From the NCBI RefSeq assembly GCF_004296575.1, contig NZ_SAYT01000006.1, positions 62,001-126,000 of the forward strand: 64,000 nt of DNA, read 5' to 3'. The notes beneath the pieces are model-generated. The model saw nothing but the letters and a program-made list of their open reading frames with translations, was not told the origin of the DNA and searched no databases. Numbering within the stretch: position 1 is the stretch's first letter; every line of letters starts with the position of its first letter. A program made the position numbers and the translations under genes. The stretch comes from Dyella amyloliquefaciens. Its GTDB lineage: Bacteria; Pseudomonadota; Gammaproteobacteria; Xanthomonadales; Rhodanobacteraceae. Positions 8,511 to 55,194 of this stretch are shown piece by piece.

Positions 8511-8675
8511 GTCTCGCCTCCGCCTTCAACCAAGCTGGGAACCAAGGCTCGGCTTCTCCTTGATGCGCTACCGCTAGCTGGCCGCCTACGACCGAAGGAA
8601 GTCCCCGCGGGACGCGGCGGGCGTTTTGATCTCCTGCCGGCGACGCGCAGCTAGTCCCCGTGGGGAGCTCGAGTC

Positions 8676-8705: not shown

Positions 8706-8874
8706 AACCCAAAGAAAATGGCCTGAAGAGCTGGCAGCGTTATGCAAGGAAGAGCTTTGAAGGATCCTGGGCCCGGATTGCGACCGCCTCCGCCGCCAAC
8801 TCGTGGCTACTCCGCAACGCGCCATGGCGCTGAGGACTTAAGGCCGCTTTGAGCATCGCCCCGGTCCTTCACTT

Positions 8875-8908
8875 GCCCCTCGCCCTTTTGGGGAGAGGGT
8901 TGGGGGGG
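8875..8908. repeat. REP-like palindromic repeat (GGGAGAGGG family), copy 3
   Basis: Reads GCCCCTCGCCCTTTTGGGG then AGAGGGTTGGGG. It matches the outer arms of copies 1 and 2 but with a degenerate left arm. It lies about 75 bp upstream of the chosen glnD start. Confidence 0.6.
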
Positions 8909-8982
8909 GGGGCGGGCTTCCGTCGACATCCAAAGCTTCTCCTCCAATTTCATCACCACATGACTGCTTCTAGCCGCTATGC

Positions 8983-32457: not shown

Positions 32458-33163
32458 GAGAAATCTCCGGGCGCTTTAGGGCAAAACGTTGATTGTACCG
32501 TTGGGCATCGAATGCCGGTACGAGAGCGGGCAAGCGCCGCCGCCGGCCCCGCTAATTCTTGCGCTAATCGCATGATCTTGTGGGAATTTTTTCGTTGGCA
32601 ACGCGGGCGGGCAATGCCAGAATGCCTCCGGTCGAAATGTGGGCTGTTTGGCATTTCGTCCGTCGCACGCATCCGTCCACCGGATGGCGACAGGGGGCAA
32701 GACCGCAGTAACGCCACGGGCTGTATGTCCGCGTCCGGCCATGATCGGGCGTCGTGGCGTGTGTGCATCCACCGGCCGCAGCAGGTCCGGTAAGCCAGTC
32801 CAGCAAGACATGACCGGATGCTTCCCGGTGATGTGCATGACTCCAGGCAAGGGCGGCATGGCCGCCAACGGCAACACAGATCGGTGCAGCAAGGGGCTGT
32901 GCCAGGCAAAGGGCAGGACCGGGTCCATCCATGCGTGCAGGGGTACGCGGGACGGCGCCGGGGAACGTGCAGTAGCCGGTCGATCGCGGCCGGTGATGTT
33001 GCGGGATGTCGCGTTGCAATCGGGTCGTCGGCCATTGCCTGCCTCGTGCAGGCATCTACAGGGGAGTAGTGATGGAGCACAGGGGTTGCCTGCGTCCGGC
33101 GAACGGGACGCATCCCACGATTGACCATGGCTTGCCGGGCAGTCTCACGGTCCGGGGGCGCGC
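32458..33163. other. 706-bp gene-free region upstream of the SapC/adhesin locus
   Basis: Divergent promoter region between the SDR and SapC genes. Open frames here (one plus frame of about 160 codons and minus frames) have no family-like sequence and read as GC noise. Visible structure: several short hairpins, for example GCCTGC-ctcgt-GCAGGC near 33037-33053. It is the longest non-coding stretch in the window and lies directly ahead of the 6,321-residue adhesin operon. A long regulated leader or small RNA is possible but not shown. Confidence 0.55.
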
Positions 33164-33910
33164 ATGAAGCAGCTACTCATCTATGACCGGCCGATCGCGC
33201 TGAACCGCCACCAGCATCGGCACCTGCGCATCAAGCCGTCACTGTCGGACTACCAGTTCGCCAGCAAGCTCAATTCGGTACCGCTCACCGTCACCGAATT
33301 TGGCGACGCGCTGCGCGACTACCCCATCGTGTTTGCAGGCAGCCCGGACAACGCTTCCATGCCGGTGGCGCTGCTCGGCCTTACGCAGGCCGAAAACCTG
33401 TTCGTCCAAGACGATGGTCTTTGGGATGCCGGCACTTATGTGCCCGCCTTTTTGCGCCGTTATCCGTTCGTGGTGGCTGATCAGGATCAGGCCGACAACT
33501 TCGCGGTGTGCGTGGACGGATCCTTCCTCAGCGAGGAACCCGACGCCGTGGCGCTGTTCGACGAAAACGGCGCGGATACGCCGGCGCTCGCGCAGGCGGT
33601 GAAATTTCTCGCCGACTACCAGCAAGCGGTGGCACGCACGCGCGCCTTCATGGAGCAACTGCGCGAGCACAAGTTGCTGGTCGACAAGGCGATCCACGTC
33701 GATCGCAAAGGCGTTGCGCGGCAATCGCTCAACGGCTTTTGCATCGTCGACGAAGCGCGCCTCAACAAGCTCGGCGCACGTGCGCTGGAAAAACTTTCAC
33801 GTACCGGCGCACTTGGACTTGCGTATCTGCAAGTGGCTTCGCTCGGCAATGTGAAGCGTTTGGCCAGCCGGCTCGACGCGCGTTCGCAAGTGCCTTCCCC
33901 GCTGCATTGA
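33164..33910 (+). CDS. SapC-family protein
   Basis: A 248-residue protein of the SapC family, named after the Campylobacter fetus S-layer secretion locus; its biochemical role is unclear. Family features: NRHQHRHLRIKPSLSDYQFA near the N-terminus, then EFGDALRDYPIVFAG, MPVALLGLTQAENLF, YVPAFLRRYPFVVA and the acidic DGSFLSEEPDAVALFDENG segment. There is no signal peptide, so it is cytoplasmic or peripheral. The start ATG at 33164 follows GGGGG by about 6 bases. Only 69 bp, with a 9-bp hairpin, separate it from the giant adhesin. Co-expression and a helper role in surface protein export are suggested by position, not shown. Confidence 0.88.
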   Translation: MKQLLIYDRPIALNRHQHRHLRIKPSLSDYQFASKLNSVPLTVTEFGDALRDYPIVFAGSPDNASMPVALLGLTQAENLFVQDDGLWDAGTYVPAFLRRYPFVVADQDQADNFAVCVDGSFLSEEPDAVALFDENGADTPALAQAVKFLADYQQAVARTRAFMEQLREHKLLVDKAIHVDRKGVARQSLNGFCIVDEARLNKLGARALEKLSRTGALGLAYLQVASLGNVKRLASRLDARSQVPSPLH

Positions 33911-33919
33911 TTGCGAGCC

Positions 33920-33940
33920 CGGGCACGCACCGCGTGCCCG
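33920..33940 (+). promoter_or_regulatory. 9-bp hairpin between the SapC and adhesin genes
   Basis: Perfect stem CGGGCACGC (33920-33928) / GCGTGCCCG (33932-33940) with a three-base loop. It starts 10 bp after the SapC stop and lies 39 bp before the adhesin start. No T-run follows, so it is a poor intrinsic terminator; it may be an mRNA-stability or processing hairpin that sets the ratio of the two products. Confidence 0.55.
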
Positions 33941-33979
33941 CGCCCGTCCTCGCACGTTTACCGCCATACGGTCAGTGCC

Positions 33980-36900
33980 ATGAGCCATCGCATCGTTTCG
34001 AAGAATCCGGCCAACCCACGTTTGCATGGCCTGGAGAAGATGTCATTGCGAACCCTGGCTACCGCCGTGTGCGGTGCGCTGGGCATGGGCTTGTCTTCGC
34101 AGGCATTGGCGGCGGGACCATCGACACTGGTCACGGTGGCCAACGGGCAGGGCCACACGCTCAATAATTTCACTGCGAGCAACATCCAGACCACCAAAAA
34201 CGGCAACAGCAACACCATCAACATCGCGCCGGTCCAGCCCAACAACAGTACCGGCAGCGTCGCCTTTGGTTCGTATGGCGATTTCAATGTCGCCCAAGGC
34301 GATACGGTCAACTTCACTCTGCCGCAGAACGCCACCAGCGTGGTCAACCTGATCTGGGGCGAAAGCACCAGCAAGGCGGCGCAGATCGACGGCACGGTCA
34401 ACAGCTACCTCTATGGGAAGAGCGGCACGAGCTATGGCGGCGCGGTGTATTTCGCCGACCCCAACGGCATCGTGATTGGCGCGTCGGGCGTATTGAACGT
34501 CGGCGCGTTGTCGTTGAGCGCGCCCACCGCATCGTTCATGCAGAACGTGCTGATCGACGCCAACAATATCGGCACCGCGGGCGCCACCAGGGCCAATCTC
34601 GATGCGCTGCTCGGGGGGCAGAACACGGTGACGACGCCGGCGACCACCACATCGCCTTTCACCGACTCCAAGAATCCGACCAATCTCAACGGCAACGCGC
34701 CGACCAGCACCACCACCTCCACGGATGCGAACGGCAACACCACCACCGACTACACCTACGTCAGTGGCAATGTCAGCACGCGAGTGGTGGTGTACGCGCC
34801 CAAGAGCGGCAGTACCACCTACACCATCTACACCACGACTGCCGAGACGGTGAATGACACCGCCGCGGCCAATGCCTGCGCGTCGGGCAACAGCGCGATG
34901 ATCTGCGTGGATGGCGCCATCCATGCCAACAATGCGGTGCGCATCCACGCCACCACCATCGACGTAAGCGGCACGATCACCGTTTCGGGAGCCGGCAGCG
35001 ATTTCCTCGCCACGGCGGTCAACCTCGACGGCAATGGCGCACCGACGCAAGTGGAGCAGGATGGCAACACCATCCGCCTGATCGCCGAGGACAGCAACGG
35101 CAGCTCCGGCGGCGGCGACGCGCAGGCCAACGCGGCGGTCAGCGTGAGCGGCACGCTCAGCACCGGCAACGGGACTTACCCGAAGTCGGCCACGCCCGCG
35201 CCGAGCCAGGACAGCTGGGGTGAAATCGCCCTGACTGCCAACGTCGCCAGCAACTCCGACTACGCCACCGGCAGCGAGATCAGCACGCTGGAAAGCGCCG
35301 GCAAGAACGTGGCGGATGGCGCCCTCCTGATGCTGGACCAGGGCACCTTCAACAGCAGCACGCCGAACCAGATTATCGACAACCTGGTGCCGTCGACGTC
35401 CCAGCTGGCATCCGATGCGATGGTCGCGGCCAATGTGGCGGCCGGCAAGCTGGGCGTGCAGGTGGCGTTTGCGCGCTCCTTCAGTACGGCCAATGTCGAG
35501 TTGTCGAAAGGCGCCAACATCAATGCCGGCGGCGACGTGCTGCTGCAATCGGGCAGCACCACCGAAACCAGTGCCAATGTCACCGCGGCGACGACCAGCG
35601 GTTCCAGCCCGCTTTCGGCTGCCGGCTTCTACGGCGCGGTTTACAGCAAGGCCAATGCCCTGGTGGATTCGGGCGCCATTGTGACCAGTGGCGGCAACGT
35701 CACGGTGAAGGCCACCACCGACAACTCGATGGCGGTCACGGCCAGCAGCACGGCCACCGGTAGCAACAGCGTGGTCGGCGCCACGGTGGCGTGGACCCAG
35801 GCGGCGGTGGATGCCAATGCGCAAGTCAACGGCACAGTCACGGCCAACGCGCTGAATATCGGCGCACACAACTCCAACGATTTCGACACCGAAGCGAGTG
35901 CTTCCACCAGCAATGCCAGCGGTTCCGGTTCCATTGGCCTGGCCGGTGCGGTCAGCCGGCAGACGATCGCGGCCGATGCTTACCTGGGCAGCGCGCCGAC
36001 CATCAACATTGGCGCAGCCGGCAACATCACCATTGCGGCCGAAACCGACACCACCAAGAACAACACCAGCGCATCGACCGGCACCACGGCGCCGACGCCA
36101 GCGGAAAGTCCGTCGCCTAGCCAGAGCGAGCAAGGCGAAGGCGGCGATCTCACCAATACGATGGGCAATGTGACCCAGAACGCCGATGGCAGCGGTTCGG
36201 GCAAGGGCCTGGGCAGCGACTTGCCGTTCAAGATCGGCTCGGCCGTGGCGTGGACCGACAGCAGCAACACTGCCACCGCTTCGACTGCGCCGAACCTGGT
36301 CATCGCCACAGGCGGCAACCTCGCGATCCAGGCCATCGTGAGCAATGCCGGCATCCACAATGGGGCCGACAGCGAAACCTCCTCTGCCGAAGATGCCGGC
36401 AGCGAAGGCGCCAGCTCCACATCGGGTTCGAGCGGTGGCGGTTCCTCCTCCGTCAACGTCTCGGCCGCCGTCGCCTACGCCAACTACCAGAACAGCGCCG
36501 ATGCCGAGATCGGCAGCGGCGACAAGATCACGGCGCAGAACATCGGCGTGAACGCGCAGGTCGTCGTGCCATTCGATTTCACCTTTGGCCTCGGTAGCCA
36601 GGTTTCGTCCGATCTTTCCGATCTGGAGAGCATGGGCAACAGCCTGGATGCTTTCGAGCAGGGCCTTTCCGATCTCAACACCCTCAAGAGCACGGTGAAG
36701 GGTTTGCCCTCCACCATCATGAACGGGGTCAGCGGTTTTGCCGGCGCGGCCGGTGATGGCAGTACCGTCACCGTGGGCGGTTCGGTCAACTACTTCGGCA
36801 TGAGCAACAGCAGTCGCGCCTGGGTCGGCAGCGGCAGTTCGCTCACTTCCACTGCCGCGACGCCGGCCAGGGGCGGCAACGAAAGCTGGACCAGTTCGCT

Positions 36901-39900
36901 CGACTGGCTGACGGGGGCGGTCAACGATCAGAACATTGCCAACAGCACCACGCCCGCCGATCCGGGTGTTACCGGCACGGGTGCCGAAGGCAGCAGTACC
37001 TTTACCTGGAGCAATTCCGTCGATGTGCTGGCCGGCACCCACGTGGCGGCGTTCAACCTGGTGGGCGACCTCGCGCCGTGGGCCGACAAGGCTGCAAAGG
37101 CGGCCATCGGCGGCGCGTTCAACTACGGCGGCTATGCCGACAGCGCAACCGCCGGCGTGGATTCCCAGGTCGCGATCACCAGCAACAACATCGTGGCGGT
37201 CAATGCCACCAGCGCAGATACGTTATTCGTGCTGAGCCCCACTTCCGGCCAGGGTGGTTCGGCCGCGATCGAAGGCATGGTGGCGCTCACCGATGTAAGT
37301 GATGCCACGCACGCCACGCTGAGCGGCAGCGACACCGTGAATGCATCCGCGCTGGACGTGAATGCCACAAACCCGGTGATGGTGTGGTCGCTGGCCGGTG
37401 CGTTGTCGAAGGCTGGCAGCGGTGCGGTGGGCTTGAGCGTAGGGATCAACGACATCACCACCAGCACGGTGGCGAGCATTGGCGATAACAGTGGCGACGA
37501 AGTTCCCGCGCCCACGCTTCCGCCCGCGCCGACACCGGCGGAAACGGGCGGCACCATCACGGTCAACAGCCTGGCTGTGCAGGCCAACACCAGCGGCGAA
37601 GCGGGCGGGTTGAGCGTGGCCGGCTCGTACGTGAGTTCGCCTGCGCCTGCGCCAGCCCCTGCGCCGAGTCCGGCTCCCGCGCCGGCCCCTGCGCCAGGCA
37701 GTGGCCTGCTCAGCATGCTCAAGGGTGTGTCCTCGCTTGCCGACAAGTTGCGCGGCGGCGCGGAGACATTCCAGAGCGCGCTGGACAAGGTGGATGAAAT
37801 CAGTGGCGAAGGCGCCACGATCGAGAGCGATCTGACCGGCTCCAGCTCCAGCTCGAGCTCCGGCAGTTCGCTGCTGGACGACGCCAGCAGCAAGCTCAGC
37901 ACCATCTCCAGCGGCCTGAGCGCGGTGTCCAGCGCAAGCTCCGGTTTGCAGGGCATCGTCGGCAAGCTTGGTAGCCTGAACAAGAAATCGAGCGGTACGC
38001 CCAGTTCCAGCTCGGGTTCCAGCTCGAGCTCCAGTGCCACCTTCGGCATTGGCATATCCGGCGCGGCCAGCGTGGACATGGCCAGCCTCAGCACGCAATC
38101 GGGCGTGGATGGCGTCACCGTCACCGTGCCGGCCAGCACCACCGCCGGCAGCCCGCAGGTGGACGTCGTGTCGACCAACGACGCGCAGTTGTACAGCGCG
38201 GCCGGCAGCGCTGCGATCGTGCGCGCGCAGAGCGGCAACACCAATGCCGGCATCGCCGGCACGGTCGCGTACTCGAACGTGGCCGACACCACCACTGCCA
38301 TCATCGGTGACCACGGCAGCAGCGATGCCACCCAGGTCAATGCCGGCAATGTCGCCGTGCAGGCGGTGGACAACAGCATGCAGGTGGATGCCGGCGTCGG
38401 TGTGGCGGCCGCACTGGGCGGCAGCGGCACGGACGTGACGCTGGCCGGCTCCGTATCGATCGGCGCCTCGCATAACCAGACCACGGCGTCGATCGATGAC
38501 GCCACCTTGACCGATCCGAACGGAACCACCACCGCCGATGGCGTGCAAGTCACGGCCTACGATGCCTCGGAAATCGGCATCGGTGCCGGCGCCCTGAGCT
38601 TGAGTACGGGCAGCGGCACCAACGTCAATGGTGCGTTGAGCCTCACTTACGCGCAGATCAAGGACAACACCAACGCCAGCGTGGACGACGGCGCCAGCAT
38701 CAGCAACTACGGCAACTTCTCGCTGAATGCGCTGGACAGCGCGCAGATCATAGCCGTGGCTGCCACCGGCAGCCTCGCCACCGGTGGAAAGGGCGTGAGC
38801 GTCACCGGCGCCGTGACCTACAGCGATGTGCAGAACGGCACCGTCGCCAGCGTCGACAACGGCGCGAGCGTGAATACCAACGGCAATATCGCCGTGCAGG
38901 CCGAAGCGGTCGATCCCACCAGCGCGTTGGTGAGTTCGCTCAACCTGCCCACGCCGCAGCCGGCAACCAGCTACTACGATTTCAGCGGCGGCGCTTTGCA
39001 GTCGAACATCGCCAGCGCGAACAGTGCGAGCCAGAACGCCGACAGCAACGCCAACGCGCAGGCCGGTCTCACCGCCTCGACCACCACGTCCGGGCCGAAC
39101 AGCACGGGGCTTGGCAGCTCGATTATCGCTGTGGCCGGCGACGTCAGCGCCGCATCCAACGACGTGGGCATGTCGCTGGCCTACAGCAACATCGCCAATA
39201 CCCATCAGGTGGTGATCAACGGCGCCAGCCTCACCGCCAACGGCGGCACGCTGAACCTCAACGCGCAGGACAACACGCGCGTCATCGATTTCGCCCTGGG
39301 CGTGGCGGGTTCTGCCGGGCCATTCGCTGGCCTGGGCAGCGCCACGGTCAGCACCATCGCCAACCACGACGAAGTGCTGCTCGGTCCCAACAGCGACGAA
39401 GCCAGCGGTCTCGGAACCGGCGCGACTTCGCTGAGCGCCAACATCATCAACGCCAGCGCGACGGACAAGTCGGCCATCTACAGCCTGGCCGGCAGCGTGG
39501 GCGTAAACACCCAGGGTGTCGCGGCCGGCGGCGCGGTCACCTACAACAACATCGGCAACACCATCGCTGCGGAAGCGACCAACGTCGCCTTCACCACCAA
39601 CGGCGCCGACACCCAAGCCTCCGCCACCAACCCCGTCTACGACCTCGGCCTGCAGGCCAGCAACAACGCAAGCATCATGGCTGGTGCGGTGGCCGGTTCG
39701 TTCGGTTCGGAAGTCGCACTCAGCCTCTCCTTCGGTTGGAACCAGACCAGCAACACGGTCGATGCAAGCCTCGTCGGCGGCTCGCTCACCAATCTCGCGC
39801 AGGGCGGTGGCAGCGCTGGTGCGCAAGGCACACTCGGCATCACCGCGACCGACAACGCCACCATCCAGGCGCTGTCCGGCGCGGTGGCCTTTAGCGGCAG

Positions 39901-45900: not shown

Positions 45901-48900
45901 CTATGCCAATGACGTGTCGATCTATGCGCCGCGTGGCGACGTGACCTTCAATGCCAACCCGGCGTTCACCGGCGGTGACCCGGCTGGCGCGCTGGACAGT
46001 TCGGCAAGCTGGCTCTTCACCAACATCCTCGGGCCGGATTTCTTCAACACCGGCAGTGCCGCGACCGGCTCCTGGGACGCGGACAAGGTGGCGGCGGCGA
46101 TCATGGAGTCGGTGTACGCGCCCAACTCGACCAGTACGGCAACGCTCAATGCCGCGCTGATGACGTACGGTGGCGGCACCCCGGTACCGTTTTCGAACTA
46201 TCAGGGAACGTTCCAGGCAACGCCGATCATCACGATCGGCAACTGTGCCGGGTTCTCGTACGGGGGCAGCACCTGCAACGGATCCGGCGATTCCGGCATC
46301 GGTTATGGCGTGATCGGCGAGGGCCCCGGCGGCGCCGGCTACACGCCGATCGTGCCGTGGATCGCGCTGGGCGTTTCGGGCACCAACGTGCAAGGTGTCT
46401 CCAGCAGCTGGGGTGCGGGCCAGAAGATGCCCTCGTCGCAGTCGCAGACACTGACGGTGAATGCGGGTGCCAATGGCTACATCGACTTCGATTCGTCCTA
46501 CACGGTGGGTCAGTCCGGTGTATGGACGGTGCAGACGCAAACGGGCCTCAACGATTTCCTCGCTGCATATTCGAGCAACAAGGGCACTCCGCTGTATGCA
46601 TACAACGCCGGTAGCAGCAGCTATGCGGCTTACCAGGAGTCGGTAAGCAATGGCACGCTGGCGCTGACCGATGGCACCGGCAATACGCTGTACTACTACA
46701 ACAGCAGCAACAGCAGCTTTGAGCCCTTGCTGGGCCTGGTGCAGTCGGCCGGCTCCAGCCGGCTCATCGGCGCCAGCTACAACCTCAACCAGAAGCAGAT
46801 CGACCTCGATAGCGTCGAGGCCACCGGCGGTGGCCAGGCCACGCTGATCGGCCATGTGGTGAGCACGGGCGGCGGCAGTATCACCGTCAACAGCGGCTAT
46901 GGCGAAGTGCTGGTGGACAACACCACCGGCCTGCCATTGCAGGTGAACAACATCGACACCGGCAAGGCATCGCCGGGCATGGTCACCATCGAAGACTATT
47001 CGCAGCTGATCGGCAGTTCCAAAGTCCCCAGCACCACCTGGTACGTCAGCGTGGACGGCGGCGCCACGCAGACGTTCACCAACAACCCAAATGCCTACAA
47101 CAGTGCGCAGAGTGGCGTGACATCGACGCTGGAAGCGGCGTCTAACGTGCCCAGCATCGTGGAAGCATCCAATGTCAGTGGCGATGCCATCTATGCGCTG
47201 ACGGAGAATGGCGGGGCGTTGACCAGTTATGCCCCGGCCCAGGGCCAGTATTACAACTACGGCATGTCTGCCACCGTGTTCCGTCCAACCTCCGGATTGC
47301 CCTACGCATACACCGGGTCGAGCAGCAGCACGGACTGGTCGTTCTACAACGCACAGACCGGCAAGGCCGAGAACGGCGACCAGGCGTGGACGCCGTATTC
47401 CGGGTTCTCCACCTCGGCGAACGTGGCACTGAACAACGGTGCGCAGTGGGCCGTGGGTATTTCCGGCAGCACGAGCAATCCCGTGCAGTCGATCTACGCA
47501 GGCGGTTGGGCGGTCTTCCACGGATGCGGCGGGGGCCTGGGTTCAGGGTGCAACTACGGCACCACGGCCACCGTCTATGACGACGACACGACCTGGTACT
47601 CCTCCAAGAACCCCGGTGGTTACGGATCGGCCTGGAATTTCCTGTATCCCGACTACGGCCGTCTCAGCATCAACGTCACCCAATCCGCCTCGCTGCCGAT
47701 TGCGGTGAATTTCGCCACCTCCACCACCAACCGCGTGGAGATCGACTCCAACGCCAATATCCTGCTCAACGGTGTCATCTCCAACACCAACAATCCGGTG
47801 CAGAACGGCAACACCGCGGCGGGCGTGTCGGCCCTGCCGGACACGCTGCTGGTCGCCACCAACGGCGGCAACATTCTCAATACCAATCCGCAGCAGCAAC
47901 TGATCTGGACGCATGACCTGGCCATGATCACCGAAGGCGGCGGCAGCATCGGCACGTCGTCCAGGCCGATCAACGTGCAGATCACCGGTTACGGCAACAC
48001 CGATACCGGCAATGGCGGTGTGGTCGATACCGGCAATGAGACCACGGTCGTGGCGGTGACCGACGGTTACACCAAGGCCAGCGCAAGCCCGGACGGTGGC
48101 AACGACGGCAGCATCCATCTCAACATCAATTCCGGCAGCAGCAACCAGCCGATCCTGGCCGTTGCCGGCGGCAAGGGCACGCAGGTCTACGGCGACGTCG
48201 ACATCACCAGCACCGGTTCGCTGGTGAGCACCCGAGGCCCCGGCGTGATGATTCCGGGCATGGCTTACCTGGGCTGCCTGCCGGCCGACATGGCCAGCGG
48301 CGGCGCCTGCACCGCGGACGCCACGGTGCAGGGTGCGATCGGCGGACAGGAGGATATCGTCGGCGACGCGGTGAGTCTCACCAGTCAGTTGGGCAGCATC
48401 GTGGGCTCGCAGACCATCAACGGCAGCGTGACCAGCGACCGGCCACTGATGGTGCAGACCCACTTCTCGGCCGGCTCGGTTGATGCGCTCAATCTCACGG
48501 CCGCCGGCGACATCGATGTCGCCAACGATGCCGGCGACTACGAAGTGGGTAGCGTGGTCTCGCAGCATGGCAATGTGACCATGGATGCCGAGAAGGGCGG
48601 CATCTACGACGCCAGCTCGCTGTCTGCTTCGGCGACGCTCAACCCCACGCAGGAAGAAGCGCTCTGGCAGCGCTTCGGTCTGGTATCGGTGGATACCAAC
48701 GGCAATGCCATCAACGGACCTACCGCAGTGGGCCAGGCGATCACCAGTCAGGTGAACGCAGCCTACAGCGAGTACGTCGGCCTCATGGCCGAAGGCAGCT
48801 ACAGCAACGGCAACTACACCTTCAACAAGACGCCGACGATGGGTCTGTTGCAGTCGTACTGGGCCCTGGTGGTGCAAGCCAGCAACGGCACGATCAGCGC

Positions 48901-51900
48901 TTCGGCCACGCCGGACCAGATCGACGTACAGAACTATCTGGCCAGCCGCATCGCCGGCGATATCTCGCTGTTCGGCCAGTGGATCAGCACTTCCAGCGCG
49001 AGCTGGAATACGCAGGGTGAATTCACCAACCCCGGCGGCGGCTACGTGTTTGCGCTTACGTTGGCGCAGCAACAATCGCTGGCTTCGCAGTCGTGGAGCG
49101 AGAACGCCTTGCTGTACAGCCTGAGCAGCGCCGGCATGCTCGCCGCGCCCAGCACGGGTGGCGCGGGATCTGGCCTCACCACCACCACGGTCGGCACCAA
49201 CTTCACGCCCAATATCAGTGGCGTGAACGTGACACTGCTGGCTAATGGCAAGAACAGCGGCCTCGGCCAGCTGGGCACGCCCATCACCATCGACGAAAGC
49301 GACCTGGCCACGCTCTACAGCACGGGTACGCTCGTCAACACGCTCGACAACGGCAACAATCCGGGCGTGTTGCAGGCATTGGCCAGCGCCAGCACGCCCG
49401 GCGACATCACGGTGTATGACACCAATCACAACGTGATCAGTGGCCAGCAGCTGGCGCAACTGGCGGCCAACGCCACCTTGTCCAGCGTGGGTGCCACGGC
49501 CGGCGGCACCACGATCGGCTCGATCGTGATCACGCAGATCGATCCGCTGTTCGTCGATGTGACCGGCGATCTGGCCGGCAAGGCGAATGGCGCGGTTTAC
49601 ATCCAGGCGCAGGGCAACCTGGCGCTGGCCACGCAGCAACAGGGCGACCAGAGCTTCCAGCTGACGGGCCTGAGCTCCGGCCTGGACATGAACCTCACCG
49701 CCACCGGCGGCATCCAGGCCGACCCGGGCACCGCATACTTGCCAAATGCCAAGGCGTTGCTCAGCGTCGGCGGCAACCTGACCATCGCGGCCAACAACAA
49801 TGTCGGCTTCGACAGTTACGGTCTGGATGCGCTGCCGGTCTTCATCACGGGCACGCTCAACAAGGGCTCGGCCGGCGGCAACCTCGCGCTGGAACAGACC
49901 GCAGGCGACCTGCTGGTGAACCAGGCCGTAGCCAACGACGACGTGCTGCTGCAGTCGCGCAACGGCAGCATCTACTCGATCAACAACGTCACCAGCGTCG
50001 CGGGCAACCAGATCACGTTCGACGCGCTGGACAATGTCGCCTTCAACAGCACGCCGACCGCCGCTACGCCCACCCTGGGGGCGCTGTGGGTGCAGGAAAC
50101 AGGCAGCAAGCCGCTGCTCTATGCCACCGCAACCAACGGCATCGTGGACATCGCCACGGACACCGGCGATCTCAACGTCGGCACGATCCAGAGCGCCGGC
50201 GAGATCACGTTGCTTTCCACGACGGGAAGCCTCGCCGCGCAGCAGCTGACTTCCAGCGATGCGGGCGTCGACGCTACCGGCTATCTGGATGCCAGGTTCT
50301 ACAACGTGCAGGCAGCCGGTGGCGTGGTGCTCAATGCCACCACGGGTGCGCTGACCACCACCGGCACCATCGCCAGCAGTGGCACGCAAGCCCTCGGCGG
50401 CAGCAACCCGGGCGACGACGTGGACCTCAACGGTGCCACCGGCGTAACCATTGGCGGGGATGTTTCCACCGGCAACGGCAACATCAATGCGACGCTGACC
50501 AACCTCACGGATACCGGTACGCTGGAGACGGGGCAGGGTGCTGCGTTGAGCGCGACCGGCGGCAATGTCGCCCTGAGTGCCGCGCAGACCGGCGATACCG
50601 TGCAGATGGGCAGCGGCAGCAGCATCACCGCCACCGGTACCGCAACGATCACTTCCGGAGGCAATGTCGTACTTGGCCTGGTGCGCAGCACCGATGCCAG
50701 CGATACCCCATCCATCAGCATTGCGGCCGCTGGCAGCATCCAGGGCAATGGCGACACGCTGAATGTGGAAGAACTCGCAGGCGGAAGCGTGTCGTTGCAA
50801 TCGGTCAACGACATCGGCAGCGCAACGAGTCCGCTGGTCGTGTACATGACCCCGGGTGCGCTCGATGCCACCAGCACGCAAGGCAGCATCTATATCAACG
50901 CGCTCGGCAACCTGAACGCACAGAGCATCAGCGCCAACCGCAACGTCGTTCTCGCGGTGGCCGATGCGCTGGACTTCACGCAGATCACCGCCGGTGGCAA
51001 CGCCACGCTCACGGCCGCAACCATCGATGGCAGCAACCTGACCGCCGGCGGCGCCGTGCAGACGAACAGCACGGGCGCGACGACGCTGGGCACGGTGGCC
51101 AGCGGTGGAGATCTGACCGCGATTGCCGGGACCGATCTCACGGCGACCACGGTGAGCAGCGGTGGCAACACGGCCCTGACCGCCACCAGCGGCACGCTGC
51201 AAATCACCGGCTCGTTGACCAGCGGCGGCGACACTGCGCTCACCGCCGGTAGCGACATCGGCGTCAACGCGCTGACGGTGGGCGGCACGCTGGTGAGCAA
51301 TAGCGGTGGCGACACGACGATCACGCAAGGGACGGTGACGGGCAGCAGCCAGTTCACCGCGGGCGGCGACCTCGCCCTGGGCGACTTCACCGGCGGCGAC
51401 AACCTCACGGCACACGCGGCCGGTTCGATCGGCTTCGGCTCGCTGCTGTTGACCGGTGGTTCGTTGCAGGCCCAGGCCGGCGGCGATCTCGACGTAACGC
51501 AGCAGCTCAACGTGCAGCAGGGCGGTGCGACCTTGGGAGCGGGCGGCAACATGTCGCTCGCCGCGGTAACCGTGGCTGACAACCTGGTGGCCCATGCGGG
51601 CGGCACGCTCAATGCCGGCAGCCTGCAAGCCGGCGGCGAGGCCACTCTCACCGCGGGCGGCGCGATGAGCCTGTCCAATGTGCAGGCCGGCCAGGATCTG
51701 ACGGCGCAGGCGGGCGGTTCGCTGCAGGCGGGCACGCTCAGCGCCGGCGGCAACGGCTCGCTGCAGTCCGGCACCAGCATGACGCTGGGTGGCGTCACCA
51801 CCGGCGGCAATCTCGACATGCTGGCGGGTCAGCAACTCGCCTTCAACGCACTCGACGCCGGCGGTTCGGTGTCCGGCCGGTCGCAGCAGGCAGGCATCCA

Positions 51901-52945
51901 GGGCAACAGCGTGCAGGCGGGTGGCTCGATCCAGTTCGTAGCGCCGGGTGACATCCGCGTGGGTGCGCTCAACGCCGGGACGGACGTCAGCCTGCAGGCG
52001 GGTGGCATGGTGGTCACCCAGACCATGGCGGCTGGGAACAACGTGACGGTGCAGTCCGGTGGCGATGCCGACCTGTACTCGACCACGGCGGGTAATACGC
52101 TGGACGTGGACAGCGGCGCGGCGATCAACATGCACGATGGCACCGCCGGGCACAGCATCAGCCTGGCCGCGCAGCAGCTGGGCTTCACCTGGCTCACCGC
52201 GCCGGACAGCATCACCCTGCTGGCGCGCGACGGCAGCATCCTGGGTGCCACGCTGACCACGCGTGATGCGTTTGTCGCGGCCAACGGGGATATCCAGCTG
52301 GATGCTGCATTTATCGGCGACCGCATCAACCTGCAGGCGAACAACATCAGCGCCACCGTGACACAGACCACCAGCGGCCAGCCGCTGTATTCGGTGCTCA
52401 CCGGCTACCAGGGCGGTGTGGCGGGCCGGATTGTGGTGACCGCGGATGCGCCGCAGGACTGGATGATCGATCGCCTGGCCGCCGTCAACGCGGCACTGGC
52501 CACCACCGCGCCGAACGTGGACATCAGCTCGGCGCACATCGAGCAGACCATGTCGGTCAAGACGCCCGACGCCTACGTGTGGATGAACGAGCACAGTGCG
52601 ATCCTGGTGCCGGCCACGGTGCAGCTGATGCAGCCGACCTACGACTTCCAGCTGCACCAGGATGGCGTGGCCACGCTCACCGATGCCTTCATCGTCCGCT
52701 ACAGCTTCGGCGACGACACCACCACGCCCAACTACGTGGCGCCGCACGACTGGCTCGCGCCGAACTATCTGGGCGAAAGCGCGCTGCGCTTCAACGGCCG
52801 CATGCTTACCGACCAGACCGATGACCGTGGTGGCGACCAGGTCGATCAGCACCCAACGCCCGTATGGACCCACACCGACCCCAGCCAGCTGGTGCGTCCG
52901 GTGGATGTCCAGGAGGCGGCAGTCAATATCAATGCTCCGGAATGA
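33980..52945 (+). CDS. giant LktA-family filamentous adhesin, TpsA exoprotein of a two-partner secretion system
   Basis: One uninterrupted 18,966-bp gene encoding 6,321 residues (roughly 600 kDa), very rich in A, G, S, T and N. The ATG at 33980 gives an extended signal peptide (44 residues, cleavage at SQALA-AGP); ATG at 34040 would give a shorter one. Order: N-terminal TPS domain with DPNGI (160-164) in place of the usual NPNGI and LNVGALSLS after it; about 3,000 residues of degenerate beta-helix units of the pattern SLAVGA...VAVNxIxxxTxAxI (for example near 2084, 2150, 2212, 2296, 2351, 2453); non-beta insertions (about 703-750, 877-920, 1218-1353); an aromatic-rich region (about 4080-4750); about 20 FHA-type repeats of about 20 residues (about 5670-6125); and a distinct C-terminal domain of about 190 residues. 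Ten mature Cys form five CX7-10C pairs. The stop overlaps the transporter start (ATGA). The family includes Fusobacterium leukotoxin LktA, but toxicity cannot be inferred. Confidence 0.93.
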   Translation: MSHRIVSKNPANPRLHGLEKMSLRTLATAVCGALGMGLSSQALAAGPSTLVTVANGQGHTLNNFTASNIQTTKNGNSNTINIAPVQPNNSTGSVAFGSYGDFNVAQGDTVNFTLPQNATSVVNLIWGESTSKAAQIDGTVNSYLYGKSGTSYGGAVYFADPNGIVIGASGVLNVGALSLSAPTASFMQNVLIDANNIGTAGATRANLDALLGGQNTVTTPATTTSPFTDSKNPTNLNGNAPTSTTTSTDANGNTTTDYTYVSGNVSTRVVVYAPKSGSTTYTIYTTTAETVNDTAAANACASGNSAMICVDGAIHANNAVRIHATTIDVSGTITVSGAGSDFLATAVNLDGNGAPTQVEQDGNTIRLIAEDSNGSSGGGDAQANAAVSVSGTLSTGNGTYPKSATPAPSQDSWGEIALTANVASNSDYATGSEISTLESAGKNVADGALLMLDQGTFNSSTPNQIIDNLVPSTSQLASDAMVAANVAAGKLGVQVAFARSFSTANVELSKGANINAGGDVLLQSGSTTETSANVTAATTSGSSPLSAAGFYGAVYSKANALVDSGAIVTSGGNVTVKATTDNSMAVTASSTATGSNSVVGATVAWTQAAVDANAQVNGTVTANALNIGAHNSNDFDTEASASTSNASGSGSIGLAGAVSRQTIAADAYLGSAPTINIGAAGNITIAAETDTTKNNTSASTGTTAPTPAESPSPSQSEQGEGGDLTNTMGNVTQNADGSGSGKGLGSDLPFKIGSAVAWTDSSNTATASTAPNLVIATGGNLAIQAIVSNAGIHNGADSETSSAEDAGSEGASSTSGSSGGGSSSVNVSAAVAYANYQNSADAEIGSGDKITAQNIGVNAQVVVPFDFTFGLGSQVSSDLSDLESMGNSLDAFEQGLSDLNTLKSTVKGLPSTIMNGVSGFAGAAGDGSTVTVGGSVNYFGMSNSSRAWVGSGSSLTSTAATPARGGNESWTSSLDWLTGAVNDQNIANSTTPADPGVTGTGAEGSSTFTWSNSVDVLAGTHVAAFNLVGDLAPWADKAAKAAIGGAFNYGGYADSATAGVDSQVAITSNNIVAVNATSADTLFVLSPTSGQGGSAAIEGMVALTDVSDATHATLSGSDTVNASALDVNATNPVMVWSLAGALSKAGSGAVGLSVGINDITTSTVASIGDNSGDEVPAPTLPPAPTPAETGGTITVNSLAVQANTSGEAGGLSVAGSYVSSPAPAPAPAPSPAPAPAPAPGSGLLSMLKGVSSLADKLRGGAETFQSALDKVDEISGEGATIESDLTGSSSSSSSGSSLLDDASSKLSTISSGLSAVSSASSGLQGIVGKLGSLNKKSSGTPSSSSGSSSSSSATFGIGISGAASVDMASLSTQSGVDGVTVTVPASTTAGSPQVDVVSTNDAQLYSAAGSAAIVRAQSGNTNAGIAGTVAYSNVADTTTAIIGDHGSSDATQVNAGNVAVQAVDNSMQVDAGVGVAAALGGSGTDVTLAGSVSIGASHNQTTASIDDATLTDPNGTTTADGVQVTAYDASEIGIGAGALSLSTGSGTNVNGALSLTYAQIKDNTNASVDDGASISNYGNFSLNALDSAQIIAVAATGSLATGGKGVSVTGAVTYSDVQNGTVASVDNGASVNTNGNIAVQAEAVDPTSALVSSLNLPTPQPATSYYDFSGGALQSNIASANSASQNADSNANAQAGLTASTTTSGPNSTGLGSSIIAVAGDVSAASNDVGMSLAYSNIANTHQVVINGASLTANGGTLNLNAQDNTRVIDFALGVAGSAGPFAGLGSATVSTIANHDEVLLGPNSDEASGLGTGATSLSANIINASATDKSAIYSLAGSVGVNTQGVAAGGAVTYNNIGNTIAAEATNVAFTTNGADTQASATNPVYDLGLQASNNASIMAGAVAGSFGSEVALSLSFGWNQTSNTVDASLVGGSLTNLAQGGGSAGAQGTLGITATDNATIQALSGAVAFSGSAGVGAAASVQEIGDSTQAWLQNASLQTNDVTVNASTTATEQSIALGAAIGGDGSGAASVAYNCIGSGGVSDGNCAGSSAGNTGTLAAVSGITGAGGAGAAVIGNTLNVSAVDNSNISTLAVDVSDASGVAVGASVAVSGIGTTTSASIGTAAPASGSDSTLTLLDVGNQTNVTATSSANIESLAVGASGSGDASVAGSASANSIDNTIRASMTNVSTGTAADPLVATSGNVTTIQATNSAQIGSLAGALVDSGSAAVGAAVAVNDINTNTTAAFDGDGGTPTSTIGNVGNWYQTGSLQVEATASIPSKTSGLFGGSSSLASDNANIQTIAVAAGLAGGVGVSGSVAVNQIGGNTSAYVDQDANVVANQNVGVLASSNQGINVYAGAAGLGDSAGVGAGVVVNTLNSGTTAYIDNSDVNAYANGAALSVAGGTTANTITLPDSLTGTLSTSTGTTSNISTPDPDLDSATTSVKGVAVSASNEQHAFTLSVGVGAGSGIAGAAEVGVNQIGGTTSAYIDDGSLINALKDTATESQQSINAAQQVYVNAYNAQYAANYLAAVAASGGIAVSAAAPVNTFNGDTKAYINASTVDSQASQQGTVVQADSYQWSLNNLGAASVSIDDSANLTGAVSLFSASTDAYINGGSISASNVSVLANSAIQSSQIGGALAVSVGELSAAGSGMALVNIDNAETSAEITNVQSFADGGAATVQATSSNTADALGEQLAGGLWAGLAGTAGVDILGNTTTALVQNSTLAVGGTLNVTANDTQNVANNLGGIGIGAAGVGGGVDVTLLQTHVDANIDDSSVTTNYGNAASGVNVYANSALSVNNQTTNIAAGAAGVGVSVGVLIAGSGDAIANNGNLSWLNGGSGTPSASSNGQSQQQVTLADVDQFGSQGSLSGTDANGNAVSYSSLGVNNASAVNSSGNFSSAWATAMGSASNGITARITDGSQITTSGNVNVAANVTDSTSNTAGAGAGGAAAIGVSVAYTELDNQVGALVDNTSKISGASTVAVQAGIADGAGGSAAYTAISTGQSAGNVTVGALGINVAVADSEINNNVLAEDAGNIAGSGTLGILAGDSSTASAGNSNPTVNVGIGVAAGTIQDTADRHDNILASLDAGATASGFASLTVAATDNGGATAQGVAGTGGIISGDGADITASDTSTVSGSIGVNTLAGSSSASIFPGYSIGSGLVTTLSGVGATKVKADAAPTLSASAQTTTIGVGISIGVNNVKATASLDSSAVVGSSGSDVQFTNAPAGSTLNVTSDFAPTLSASSTGNSGGIVAVDASDATASSSGSNRAEIGSGVMLPLLGSVSIVADSTPVASAHANGVVAGGFIGGGFNANASSDETTTASLDGSQANVSEIIRNATTGVTYAGATELTSLGIVADSTDTNDAAVKSGSGELVGGVASTATTAALSSSSATLGANQYLTMGGEFNLVANTQYIYGVTADSSNGAVVGGSGAYANNLAGASGTTAAASIGGNTAVVSGGDLNVIADTTMSADTSNGGATSGAGGLFVGTAAKVDNTFLANNAALIGNGDYLATYGYETSSTLSSINVIAFSTIQNVDDQASITIGGAVPVANPTTNFTGTVGNTIDIDGNSALSSYVVNVGTYAMMGAMNTAIGNSYGLAGVASASSTTSLTASQSVNVGTDGNGTVSIASMDDSYVLAGEDFGDGSLATELNAQPVAQAYVRGLIAIPSASATANVLSNASLTLGAGSSVTSDGDVNIGSINGTLTAHPDSEGHGYELGFIPVTNSDNSTSVGGSANTVINGNVVAGTGGDLLINIDASGNLTSNAIAYAVDTGSGFATAGGTISGTPSAVTFAAQWVNDYNETAPGSTGSVTAWELGGSASDVLGVPLSVRGGNVYLFGGNGTSANTGGISGSGSVMANPAPSITINNASTDTLALSGIDVSFGLSGTVYENNANTSGTTSIGGVSITQAPSDAQPNITVNNTYNGTLSPSQNTPDIMVNGVIQDFGGNVSLSTSEGSITTNGIYANDVSIYAPRGDVTFNANPAFTGGDPAGALDSSASWLFTNILGPDFFNTGSAATGSWDADKVAAAIMESVYAPNSTSTATLNAALMTYGGGTPVPFSNYQGTFQATPIITIGNCAGFSYGGSTCNGSGDSGIGYGVIGEGPGGAGYTPIVPWIALGVSGTNVQGVSSSWGAGQKMPSSQSQTLTVNAGANGYIDFDSSYTVGQSGVWTVQTQTGLNDFLAAYSSNKGTPLYAYNAGSSSYAAYQESVSNGTLALTDGTGNTLYYYNSSNSSFEPLLGLVQSAGSSRLIGASYNLNQKQIDLDSVEATGGGQATLIGHVVSTGGGSITVNSGYGEVLVDNTTGLPLQVNNIDTGKASPGMVTIEDYSQLIGSSKVPSTTWYVSVDGGATQTFTNNPNAYNSAQSGVTSTLEAASNVPSIVEASNVSGDAIYALTENGGALTSYAPAQGQYYNYGMSATVFRPTSGLPYAYTGSSSSTDWSFYNAQTGKAENGDQAWTPYSGFSTSANVALNNGAQWAVGISGSTSNPVQSIYAGGWAVFHGCGGGLGSGCNYGTTATVYDDDTTWYSSKNPGGYGSAWNFLYPDYGRLSINVTQSASLPIAVNFATSTTNRVEIDSNANILLNGVISNTNNPVQNGNTAAGVSALPDTLLVATNGGNILNTNPQQQLIWTHDLAMITEGGGSIGTSSRPINVQITGYGNTDTGNGGVVDTGNETTVVAVTDGYTKASASPDGGNDGSIHLNINSGSSNQPILAVAGGKGTQVYGDVDITSTGSLVSTRGPGVMIPGMAYLGCLPADMASGGACTADATVQGAIGGQEDIVGDAVSLTSQLGSIVGSQTINGSVTSDRPLMVQTHFSAGSVDALNLTAAGDIDVANDAGDYEVGSVVSQHGNVTMDAEKGGIYDASSLSASATLNPTQEEALWQRFGLVSVDTNGNAINGPTAVGQAITSQVNAAYSEYVGLMAEGSYSNGNYTFNKTPTMGLLQSYWALVVQASNGTISASATPDQIDVQNYLASRIAGDISLFGQWISTSSASWNTQGEFTNPGGGYVFALTLAQQQSLASQSWSENALLYSLSSAGMLAAPSTGGAGSGLTTTTVGTNFTPNISGVNVTLLANGKNSGLGQLGTPITIDESDLATLYSTGTLVNTLDNGNNPGVLQALASASTPGDITVYDTNHNVISGQQLAQLAANATLSSVGATAGGTTIGSIVITQIDPLFVDVTGDLAGKANGAVYIQAQGNLALATQQQGDQSFQLTGLSSGLDMNLTATGGIQADPGTAYLPNAKALLSVGGNLTIAANNNVGFDSYGLDALPVFITGTLNKGSAGGNLALEQTAGDLLVNQAVANDDVLLQSRNGSIYSINNVTSVAGNQITFDALDNVAFNSTPTAATPTLGALWVQETGSKPLLYATATNGIVDIATDTGDLNVGTIQSAGEITLLSTTGSLAAQQLTSSDAGVDATGYLDARFYNVQAAGGVVLNATTGALTTTGTIASSGTQALGGSNPGDDVDLNGATGVTIGGDVSTGNGNINATLTNLTDTGTLETGQGAALSATGGNVALSAAQTGDTVQMGSGSSITATGTATITSGGNVVLGLVRSTDASDTPSISIAAAGSIQGNGDTLNVEELAGGSVSLQSVNDIGSATSPLVVYMTPGALDATSTQGSIYINALGNLNAQSISANRNVVLAVADALDFTQITAGGNATLTAATIDGSNLTAGGAVQTNSTGATTLGTVASGGDLTAIAGTDLTATTVSSGGNTALTATSGTLQITGSLTSGGDTALTAGSDIGVNALTVGGTLVSNSGGDTTITQGTVTGSSQFTAGGDLALGDFTGGDNLTAHAAGSIGFGSLLLTGGSLQAQAGGDLDVTQQLNVQQGGATLGAGGNMSLAAVTVADNLVAHAGGTLNAGSLQAGGEATLTAGGAMSLSNVQAGQDLTAQAGGSLQAGTLSAGGNGSLQSGTSMTLGGVTTGGNLDMLAGQQLAFNALDAGGSVSGRSQQAGIQGNSVQAGGSIQFVAPGDIRVGALNAGTDVSLQAGGMVVTQTMAAGNNVTVQSGGDADLYSTTAGNTLDVDSGAAINMHDGTAGHSISLAAQQLGFTWLTAPDSITLLARDGSILGATLTTRDAFVAANGDIQLDAAFIGDRINLQANNISATVTQTTSGQPLYSVLTGYQGGVAGRIVVTADAPQDWMIDRLAAVNAALATTAPNVDISSAHIEQTMSVKTPDAYVWMNEHSAILVPATVQLMQPTYDFQLHQDGVATLTDAFIVRYSFGDDTTTPNYVAPHDWLAPNYLGESALRFNGRMLTDQTDDRGGDQVDQHPTPVWTHTDPSQLVRPVDVQEAAVNINAPE

Positions 52946-54612
52946 GGCGATACATGCAGGGATACAGGGGAACGGCGCCATGGCGCCGCGTGGTGATGAG
53001 CGCGGCGCTGGCAGCGGGATGCAGTAGTGGAATCCTCGGCGTAGCCCAGGCACAGACACAGTCGCAGGTGACGCCGAGCACGTTGCAGAACGATGCCCAG
53101 CGCCAGCAGCGCTATTACCAACAACAACAGACACCACCGCCGGTGCAGCAGACGGATCCGCTGCAGCAGCCGGCCGCGCCGGCGGTTGGCGCGGCCAACG
53201 CGCACACGACGGCGCGCTTCGTGCTCAAGCGCGTCGAGTTCACGCCCTCGGCCCTGCTAAAGCCGGCCGACCTGGCGGCGGCGGTCAAGCCGTATGAGGG
53301 CAGGGAGGTCGATGGCGCCAAACTCGCGCAGATGCTCGATGCAGTGAACAACCTGTATCGCGCGCGCAAGATCACCACGGCACGTGCATTGTTCAAGAAC
53401 CAGCCGGTGGTCGATGGCGTGGTACACGTGGACCTGATTGAAGGACGCCTGGGCAAGGTGGCCATCAAGGGCAAGCGGCATGTCAGTGACCACTACCTGG
53501 CCAAGCGCCTCGACCTGAAGGAAGGCGAGGTGGTCGACGCCGAGCAGTTGCGCGACAAGCTGGTCACGCTCAACCGCACCACCGACCTGCAGGCACAGGC
53601 GGTGCTGGTGCCGGGCGCCTCGCGCGGGCTCACCGACGTCCAGCTGGACGTGCAGGAACCAAGCCGCTGGGCGCTGGATGCCTTTGTCGACAACGGCGGC
53701 GTGGACAGCACGGGGCGCAACCGCGTCGGCCTGCAGGGTCACCTGTACAGCCTGTTTGGCATCGACGATATGCTGGACGGCAACGTGGCGCACTCCAGCG
53801 GCGGCAACGACGGCTCGGTGTCCTACTCGGTGCCACTGTTCCCGAACAACGGGCGGCTGGGCGTCAGTTACTCGCACAGCCAGATCAACGTGATCAACCA
53901 GGCGTTCCGCAACATCGACATCCAGGGCACCTCGTCGGTCACCTCGCTCAACTACAACCAGCCGTTGATCGCGACCCTGGACTGGCTGTTCAGCGGCATC
54001 GGCTCCTATTCCATCACCGACTCCAACACACATATCAGCGGCCAGGACATCGCTGACACGCGTACCAATGCCTGGACCCTGGGCGCCAGTCTGGCGCACC
54101 AGTCGGACGGGCAACGCTGGGGCGCCACCCAGCTTTTCACGCGCATACGTTCCGACGAGCCCCTGCTGGGCAAATCGGACTTCACGATCGCCCCCGGCAG
54201 CGCTTATTTCATCCAGCGGCTGTGGCAGTCGCGCTGGGCCTTGCGCGCAGACCTGGGCTGGCAGTTCAGTGCCACCGGCAACCTGCCCTCGGCCAACTTG
54301 TTCCAGATCGGCGGTCCGGGCAGCGTGCGTGGCTACGAGCGTGGCGTGCTATCGGGTGCCCGTGGCTACTACGCGGATCTCGAGCTGCATCGCTCCGTGG
54401 GCGAACGGCTGGACCTGTTCGGCTTTGTCGACCATGGCCAGGTGTCCTCGTCCTTCCCTGGCAACCAGCAGATCAGTGGCGCGGGCGTGGGCGGCAGCTA
54501 CTCCTACCGCTGGATTACCGCCTCGGCCGACGTGGCCAAGCCCTTTGTGACGGTGATTCCCGATCAGGACAGTGTGCGCTTCGACTTCCGCCTGACCGCG
54601 CACTTCGACTGA
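52942..54612 (+). CDS. TpsB outer-membrane transporter (ShlB/FhaC/HecB family)
   Basis: Outer-membrane barrel that exports the adjacent TpsA protein. The ATG at 52942 overlaps the adhesin stop (ATGA) and gives 556 residues with a signal peptide (about residues 1-37, ending VAQA). A Gln/Pro-rich linker (QRQQRYYQQQQTPPP) is followed by two POTRA domains (about 91-165 beginning FVLKRVEFTPSALL, and about 166-240 with VAIKGKRHVSDHYLAKRLDL). The 16-strand barrel follows and carries the family L6 motif VRGYERG at 462-468. The barrel ends with a terminal aromatic (RLTAHFD). The exact coupling to the adhesin makes this pair a functional TPS unit. Confidence 0.94.
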   Translation: MRRYMQGYRGTAPWRRVVMSAALAAGCSSGILGVAQAQTQSQVTPSTLQNDAQRQQRYYQQQQTPPPVQQTDPLQQPAAPAVGAANAHTTARFVLKRVEFTPSALLKPADLAAAVKPYEGREVDGAKLAQMLDAVNNLYRARKITTARALFKNQPVVDGVVHVDLIEGRLGKVAIKGKRHVSDHYLAKRLDLKEGEVVDAEQLRDKLVTLNRTTDLQAQAVLVPGASRGLTDVQLDVQEPSRWALDAFVDNGGVDSTGRNRVGLQGHLYSLFGIDDMLDGNVAHSSGGNDGSVSYSVPLFPNNGRLGVSYSHSQINVINQAFRNIDIQGTSSVTSLNYNQPLIATLDWLFSGIGSYSITDSNTHISGQDIADTRTNAWTLGASLAHQSDGQRWGATQLFTRIRSDEPLLGKSDFTIAPGSAYFIQRLWQSRWALRADLGWQFSATGNLPSANLFQIGGPGSVRGYERGVLSGARGYYADLELHRSVGERLDLFGFVDHGQVSSSFPGNQQISGAGVGGSYSYRWITASADVAKPFVTVIPDQDSVRFDFRLTAHFD

Positions 54613-54618
54613 ACCTGG

Positions 54619-55194
54619 TCAGCTGTTGATTTGCTGCAGAAGCGCGGTCCAGGCCGCGCTCTCGCGTAGCGTGGCGAATGGGATGACCGGCGTGGGGGGC
54701 GTGGTCGGCGGCTGCAGTTCCTTCTGCCACACGCCCACGTCCCACCATTGGCCCAGCTTGTAACCGCTGCTGCGCCATACGCCGGCGGGGGTGAAACCCA
54801 TGGCGTCGTGCATCGTGACGCTGCTCTTGCCGGGCAGGGTGATCACGCCGACGGCCTGGTTGATGCCCTGCAATTGCATGGCATCGAGCAGGAAGCCGTA
54901 AAGACGGCGAGCGATGCCGCGGCGGCGTGCATCGACATGGACGTAGATGGACGTTTCGGCAATCCAGTCGTACGCAGCGCGTTCGCGGAAGCGGCTGGCG
55001 TAGGCGTAGGCCAGTACGCGGCCGGCGTCTTCCCAGACCAGCCAGGGATAGTGCTGCAGGCGGCTGACGATGCGCCCGCGCATCGCCTCCACACCGGGCA
55101 GGTCGTTCTCAAAGGTTTCCACGCCATGCAGTACCGAGGGCGTGTAGATATCGTGGATGGCCTCGGCGTCGTCGGGGCGGGCGATGCGGATCAT
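54619..55194 (-). CDS. GNAT acetyltransferase, phosphinothricin/arsinothricin N-acetyltransferase-like
   Basis: A 191-residue GNAT protein. The N-terminus RIARPDDAEAIHDIYTPSVL and the acetyl-CoA site VHVDARRRGIARRLYGFLLD (about 92-111), then AMGFTPAGVWRSSGYKLGQW, match the Pat/ArsN subgroup that acetylates phosphinothricin, methionine sulfone or arsinothricin. The actual substrate is unknown. A Pro-rich tail of about 25 residues follows the core. It is convergent with the TpsB gene (6-bp gap, no visible terminator), and its start overlaps the next GNAT gene by 4 bp. Confidence 0.88.
   Translation of the reverse strand: MIRIARPDDAEAIHDIYTPSVLHGVETFENDLPGVEAMRGRIVSRLQHYPWLVWEDAGRVLAYAYASRFRERAAYDWIAETSIYVHVDARRRGIARRLYGFLLDAMQLQGINQAVGVITLPGKSSVTMHDAMGFTPAGVWRSSGYKLGQWWDVGVWQKELQPPTTPPTPVIPFATLRESAAWTALLQQINS

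Follow-up and report, generated by a model that had tools for sequence, protein, structure and literature searches.

The HMW1ABC system of non-typeable Haemophilus influenzae includes HMW1C, a cytoplasmic glycosyltransferase that is a third partner in two-partner secretion (TPS) and acts on the adhesin, and the third gene of the TPS operon cdiBCAI encodes CdiC, by prediction also a cytoplasmic third partner, which is of a predicted toxin-acyltransferase family and possibly modifies CdiA (both according to passages of a TPS review, PMC5422565). That review names third partners and nowhere mentions 'SapC'. Elsewhere, in the sapCDEF genes of Campylobacter fetus, a gene named sapC is found beside genes for the export of a large surface protein (passages of PMC4943207 and PMC3887049); sapC is there a 'component of the Sap-transporter' (PMC3887049), and the exporter is described as a 'Type I secretion SapDEF system' (passages of PMC6374484). 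No paper pairing 'SapC' with 'two-partner secretion' was found in a literature search outside which most subscription journals lie. Among the matches listed for filamentous hemagglutinin and TPS there was no use of SapC, searches by the SapC family name found none on SapC function, and passages of PMC4911050 and PMC6374484 contained no SapC-TPS pairing. As far as these searches reach, a sapC-tpsA-tpsB variant of TPS is undescribed.

Such a variant was examined in the window (the whole 64,000 nucleotide stretch analysed here, from contig NZ_SAYT01000006.1 of the soil bacterium Dyella amyloliquefaciens), where three genes lie head to tail on the forward strand. These are sapC (coordinates 33164–33910, ATG to stop), encoding a 248 aa protein of the TPS-linked SapC type (PF07277), tpsA (33980–52945, ATG to stop), encoding a 6,321 aa LktA-like filamentous exoprotein with an N-terminal TPS domain, and tpsB (52942–54612), encoding a 556 aa outer-membrane transporter. 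Every coordinate was rechecked, and the layout given in a preliminary description of this DNA was reproduced, including the 69 bp spacing between sapC and tpsA (33911–33979, forward strand), which carries a GC-rich hairpin, and the 4 bp ATGA overlap, in which the tpsB start at 52942 lies together with the tpsA stop. The 706 bp non-coding stretch ahead of sapC (32458–33163, forward strand) was likewise recovered as a leader or divergent promoter region without a called gene, and its edge is an SDR-family gene (31696–32457, reverse strand) that is divergent from sapC. Two GNAT acetyltransferase genes (54619–55700) adjoin tpsB on the opposite strand. A role in anti-phage defence was dropped, as a PADLOC search matched none of SapC, TpsB and the SDR protein.

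The predicted TpsA has a computed mass of ~616 kDa, a pI of 4.05 and 11 cysteines. Profile TIGR01901 matched residues 98–181 above its cut-off (36.0 bits versus 29.1), identifying an N-terminal TPS secretion domain, and the LktA repeat NF012206 was found in four stretches (59.4 bits; cut-off 50). This repeat and the TpsA/TpsB pair are shared with the LktA-family TPS adhesins. However, NF012204, the FxxPxG N-terminal domain of LktA, was not matched in the window TpsA at E≤1e-3, and the protein is therefore named only 'LktA-like'; the presence of SapC is a further difference from that family. NF012204 was matched in two relatives (L060 and L067). Pfam searches with residues 1–4999 and with the last 1,322 residues found nothing, PF05860 included. 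A structural model of residues 1–340 was of middling confidence (pLDDT 70.9; 14 sequences), and Foldseek ranks 1–16 in the PDB were all TPS domains or TpsA proteins, with modest scores (one match at E≤1e-3, with an E value of 5.6e-4 and a TM score of 0.29). Ten of the cysteines occur in pairs that are 8–11 residues apart (300/309, 2037/2048, 4089/4099, 4516/4524 and 4766/4777).

The TpsB domain search, for which the longer frame 52864–54612 was used, identified PF03865 (ShlB; 96.7 bits) and PF08479 (POTRA_2; 57.4 bits). A protein with POTRA and ShlB/FhaC barrel domains is thus encoded beside TpsA, as in type Vb secretion, and TpsA is predicted to pass through TpsB. The last 350 aa of TpsA were recognisable in all eight relatives compared (34–92% identical), and neither this segment nor the last 1,322 aa matched a Pfam or NCBIfam family. 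A variable C-terminal toxin with an immunity gene was not found at the locus, and a CDI system was rejected, as the TpsA C-terminus is kept in these relatives and tpsB follows tpsA directly. The Dyella locus resembles cdiBCAI, as described in the review passages, in having a third gene with the TPS pair but differs from it in the TpsA C-terminus and in that SapC has no toxin-acyltransferase match.

SapC matched PF07277 over nearly its full length (residues 13–233 on profile positions 1–220; 233 bits, cut-off 28.9) and no other Pfam family, known DNA- and RNA-binding families included. Its N-terminus lacks a hydrophobic, signal-like segment, and SapC is predicted to be located in the cytoplasm. 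As no export signal is visible, SapC should meet TpsA before export by Sec. The locus is similar to HMW1ABC, as presented in the review passages, in being a three-gene TPS system with a cytoplasmic third protein, predicted to be so for SapC. However, HMW1C is a glycosyltransferase, whereas SapC matches only Pfam SapC and no solved fold. When the confident AlphaFold2 model of SapC (pLDDT 89.9, pTM 0.86; 64 sequences) was used in Foldseek, no solved fold was matched, chaperones included; a viral structure library gave 0 of 269 matches at E≤1e-3, and a sequence search for solved relatives returned a single chance match (E 1.3). As there is no fold match, known glycosyltransferase and acyltransferase folds are unlikely, and an enzyme of either kind with a known fold was rejected within the reach of Foldseek. 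Neither the GT41 (HMW1C-like) nor the toxin acyltransferase (HlyC/CdiC-like) family or fold was matched.

Six polar residues of SapC (H18, E45, N78, Y92, D118 and S226) are 90–100% conserved (weighted) across 216 SapC sequences and may form an active or ligand site. This argument is weakened by hydrophobic, proline and glycine positions that are equally invariant in the same sequences (F57, P94, P101 and G72), and the conserved residues may instead be structural. The closest SapC protein, from Dyella solisilvae, is 93% identical. The sapC gene is under purifying selection among three Dyella genomes (dN 0.033–0.046, dS 0.285–0.301), with similar selection on tpsB in the single Dyella pair compared (dN 0.034, dS 0.322).

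A neighbourhood search for SapC beside an LktA-like TpsA, as proposed in the preliminary description, showed that the arrangement is not confined to this genome. Nine TpsB orthologues, the window's own included, were found in 197 genomes of the family at 46–100% identity, and identity falls from 46% to 31% after the ninth match. At all nine loci, which span five genus codes, a SapC of the TPS-linked type is encoded upstream on the same strand. The start of TpsA lies right behind SapC and its end right before TpsB in the window and in the other eight loci, where the two ends of TpsA were compared and its middle lay outside the regions. By comparison, ShlB was found in 114 of the 197 genomes at E≤1e-3 and in 105 at E≤1e-6. 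The sapC-tpsA-tpsB set is a conserved three-gene variant of two-partner secretion, and its recurrence in 9 of 197 genomes together with the purifying selection indicates that it is more than chance; the proposal that the three genes form a unit is thus supported, and the order of sapC followed by a giant TpsA-like gene also occurs in other genera. Of six extra SapC copies, each a second or third one in its genome (G012, G034, G048 and G077), five are in TonB-receptor clusters and one stands alone, with TPS linkage in none.

A giant open reading frame directly after SapC was found in 14 of the best 80 of 190 relatives in named genomes; six of these 14 were judged to be genomes already present in the family sample. 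The 14 loci are from Dyella (3), a Rhodanobacter MAG (1), Oleiagrimonas (2), Lysobacter arvi (1), Stenotrophomonas (4), and Pinirhizobacter, a Lysobacteraceae MAG and Pseudoxanthomonas koreensis (1 each), and the 10 kb flank examined ends before tpsB. The TPS identity of these reading frames was assigned using a TpsA profile in nine cases, NCBIfam in two (L060 and L067) and similarity to L060 in three (L061, L062 and L064). The profile has nine rows, one of which (L045) is off frame and X-filled, and six of the nine loci marked by it share genomes with profile rows.

As relatives keep the same set of genes, SapC probably helps to prepare the giant protein for export. The odds appear about even that the locus is a three-partner form of TPS (type Vb), with a cytoplasmic SapC working on TpsA ahead of its export. 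SapC, the product of the first gene of the locus, would act on TpsA that has not yet left the cytoplasm, most likely maturing or chemically modifying it, or binding a ligand needed for that, more than simply keeping it unfolded, and TpsA would then be exported via Sec and cross the outer membrane driven by TpsB. Contact between SapC and TpsA, and action before export, are what we infer from the arrangement. If SapC does modify or pilot TpsA, it would be a new class among the few third TPS partners, and this could account for its presence in other export loci. The strict pairing of SapC with one TPS type, comprising one gene, one giant substrate and one exporter, offers a clean genetic handle.

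The main alternative, although rather unlikely, is that SapC serves in the cytoplasm as a holdase or pilot, maintaining the 616 kDa TpsA in an export-competent state and delivering it to Sec. This would suit a protein that lacks a signal-like N-terminus, is encoded by the first gene of the locus and is linked to giant exoproteins of differing export routes. However, the near-invariant polar residues, kept across very different partners, exceed the apparent needs of a loose chaperone surface, and the SapC fold resembles that of no solved protein, chaperones included. The two other TpsB genes found in the window's own genome among the matches listed, both on contigs lacking SapC, also count against a holdase. 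We lean towards maturation or modification, given these polar residues and the modifying-enzyme genes found beside SapC in other loci.

SapC was also found beside TPS genes in other orders and lineages. The other ARRANGEMENTS, with tpsB followed directly by sapC, was present in Pseudomonas viridiflava (2 records), P. saudimassiliensis, Stutzerimonas stutzeri, Ancylobacter vacuolatus and one Xanthobacteraceae genome. In three genomes of the phylum sample (L133, L134 and L135), a giant open reading frame of >4,000 aa that extends past the end of the region lies ahead of tpsB-sapC, and the LktA repeat was found in those of L133 (50.4 bits) and L134 (74.0 bits; cut-off 50). LktA-like giants may therefore be a preferred partner of SapC. 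A Pfam search with the first 1,000 residues available of each of the three giant proteins, whose true N-termini lie beyond the regions, gave no match. In L136, the reading frame upstream was called ambiguously. Further orders are tpsB-ialB-sapC with a TPS-domain reading frame upstream (L137), tpsB-tpsA-sapC (L138), tpsB-sapC-tpsA in Pelomonas, and tpsB-sapC-ppiC-tpsB-tpsA (L049; G066 C5, 280000–297000), which includes two TpsB genes and a gene for a PpiC-type isomerase.

In a sample of 299 genomes from the phylum, ShlB was found at E≤1e-6 in 56 of the 109 newly searched genomes with SapC, and at least five SapC-ShlB pairs share a strand and are no more than 1.5 kb apart (G422, G408, G444, G227 and G381), the LktA-repeat loci L133 and L134 being two of them. 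These were picked from match lists by eye, so that pair counts are lower bounds, and they span five family codes with a gene order unlike that in the window. Random placement predicts 0.061 such pairs versus the at least five found (Poisson 6e-9, with kinship ignored). However, few of the ShlB places among the matches listed are near SapC, which counts against the three-partner reading. A further pair in G423, 19 kb apart, was rejected as a long sapC-tpsA-tpsB locus, as its SapC belongs to a TonB-receptor/cupin/halogenase cluster. Genome counts in the family were 101 with both SapC and ShlB, 19 with SapC only, 4 with ShlB only and 73 with neither (17, 2, 1 and 6, respectively, by genera), and in the phylum ShlB occurred in 58 of 111 genomes with SapC versus 65 of 188 without. 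This genome-level co-occurrence fits the three-partner reading but is not used as proof, as it is confounded by kinship.

SapC is widespread, with PF07277 present in 120 of the 197 family genomes and 111 of the 299 phylum genomes. After TPS-adjacent copies had been removed, 89 phylum copies in 88 regions were counted (8 regions picked for spread and 80 mainly in list order, with several ending at contig ends). A TonB receptor gene together with halogenase or Cupin_8 genes was found beside 24 copies, SecA-like, M50 or HlyD genes beside eight and a halogenase-like gene alone beside two, while for 55 copies no gene of these kinds was found within 5 kb. Pfam confirmed SecA, M50, HlyD and OEP, and also TonB receptor, Cupin_8 and Trp_halogenase, near SapC in representative loci. 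A cluster of TonB receptor, SapC, Cupin_8 and one or two Trp_halogenase genes recurs (L139, L146, L158, L164 and others); it is similar to the Dyella locus in placing SapC beside an outer-membrane protein gene but has no TPS genes. SecA-like, M50, HlyD or OEP genes are clustered with SapC in L147, L152, L156, L161, L076 and L077, possibly representing a little-described exporter of giant proteins.

Reading frames with RTX were found near SapC in 8 of 223 loci (225 copies), namely L066, L069, L073, L092, L147, L156, L161 and L192, with the RTX frame on the strand opposite SapC in L092 and L192 and RTX confirmed by Pfam in L156. Three of them (L147, L156 and L161) combine RTX frames of at least 1,645 aa with SecA/M50/HlyD-type genes. 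In L125, a TPR and glycosyltransferase family 41 gene (8219–9778) lies 112 bp ahead of SapC and a Trp_halogenase-family gene lies behind it, and in L192 a weaker GT41-like frame is found beside SapC on the opposite strand.

These neighbours, counted without a chance rate, point to surface-protein export or modification, and the neighbourhoods of SapC agree with the assisting role in export suggested in the preliminary description. The analogy drawn there with S-layer secretion depends on what the gene is called in Campylobacter fetus, and in the passages cited above sapCDEF export, unlike that predicted for the Dyella locus, is not TPS. A strict rule linking SapC with export is disfavoured, as most copies lack such neighbours. 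That SapC keeps the company of quite different exporters suggests that it targets the substrate and not any single exporter. More tentatively, SapC might be a cytoplasmic factor that serves giant surface proteins in general before their export and was recruited many times by different routes (TPS, RTX giants with SecA-like/M50/HlyD genes, and perhaps TonB receptors with a halogenase and a cupin-type hydroxylase), with a fold absent from solved structures and possibly a new protein-modifying chemistry; we regard this as possible but doubtful.

A tree of SapC was constructed from 94 of 215 rows (TPS 31 of 31, SecA/M50 13 of 13, TonB 16 of 28 and unlabelled 34 of 143) after duplicate loci of one genome had been removed by hand. 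It is a 'quick' build with long branches flagged for L049, L117, L225, L131 and L108, and the TPS label of L110 rests on a TpsB gene 1.3 kb away with one gene between. The TPS label requires nine changes on this tree, at least six of which are forced by strongly supported branches. The 17 rows of the sapC-tpsA type, the window SapC among them, come from two families and group together (support 87), and this group joins eight solo SapC of the same family at a fork with support 95. The Pseudomonas-type SapC fall in a separate group (support 96), and 11 of the 16 TonB-linked rows included in the tree cluster by themselves at a distance. Five residues (K2, Q3, N37, C116 and F192) separate the TPS type from solo SapC, with at least 90% in each (17 and 18 sequences).

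It could be argued that SapC does something unrelated to TpsA, as it would in the solo and TonB-receptor loci, and is no more than co-transcribed with the TPS pair, given the 55 of 89 phylum copies without tested neighbours and the family SapC regions standing alone (14 of 20 examined, one of them among the six extra copies). The window's own genome also has a second SapC (L141) that stands alone, and this, like the 55 copies, counts against the three-partner reading. We consider this very improbable, as SapC accompanies nine of nine TpsB orthologues, TPS-linked SapC form a group on the tree, and SapC-ShlB linkage recurs above the chance rate, kinship ignored.

The position of sapC behind the 706 bp leader and ahead of the gap bearing the hairpin could also be taken to indicate that SapC controls how strongly the adhesin locus is expressed instead of acting on TpsA. 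However, no match links SapC to a known family or fold that binds DNA or RNA, and its order relative to the TPS genes differs between lineages, making a regulator improbable. The hairpin in the sapC-tpsA gap of the window has a minimum free energy of -33.8 kcal/mol (z -3.12). As z varied from -3.12 to +0.99 over the 12 loci compared (the window and 11 others, with the tpsA starts outside the window chosen by hand), it is not claimed as a defining part of the locus. The gap hairpins are GC-rich and have no T-run, and could tune the ratio of sapC to tpsA transcripts. An Rfam element in the leader was rejected, as the best score of 22.2 bits was under the gathering threshold of 40. The aligned parts of the leader are 84% identical in D. 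solisilvae and 78% in Dyella sp. C9, and it includes one sigma-70-like match on the forward strand (32595–32623), scored on consensus only.
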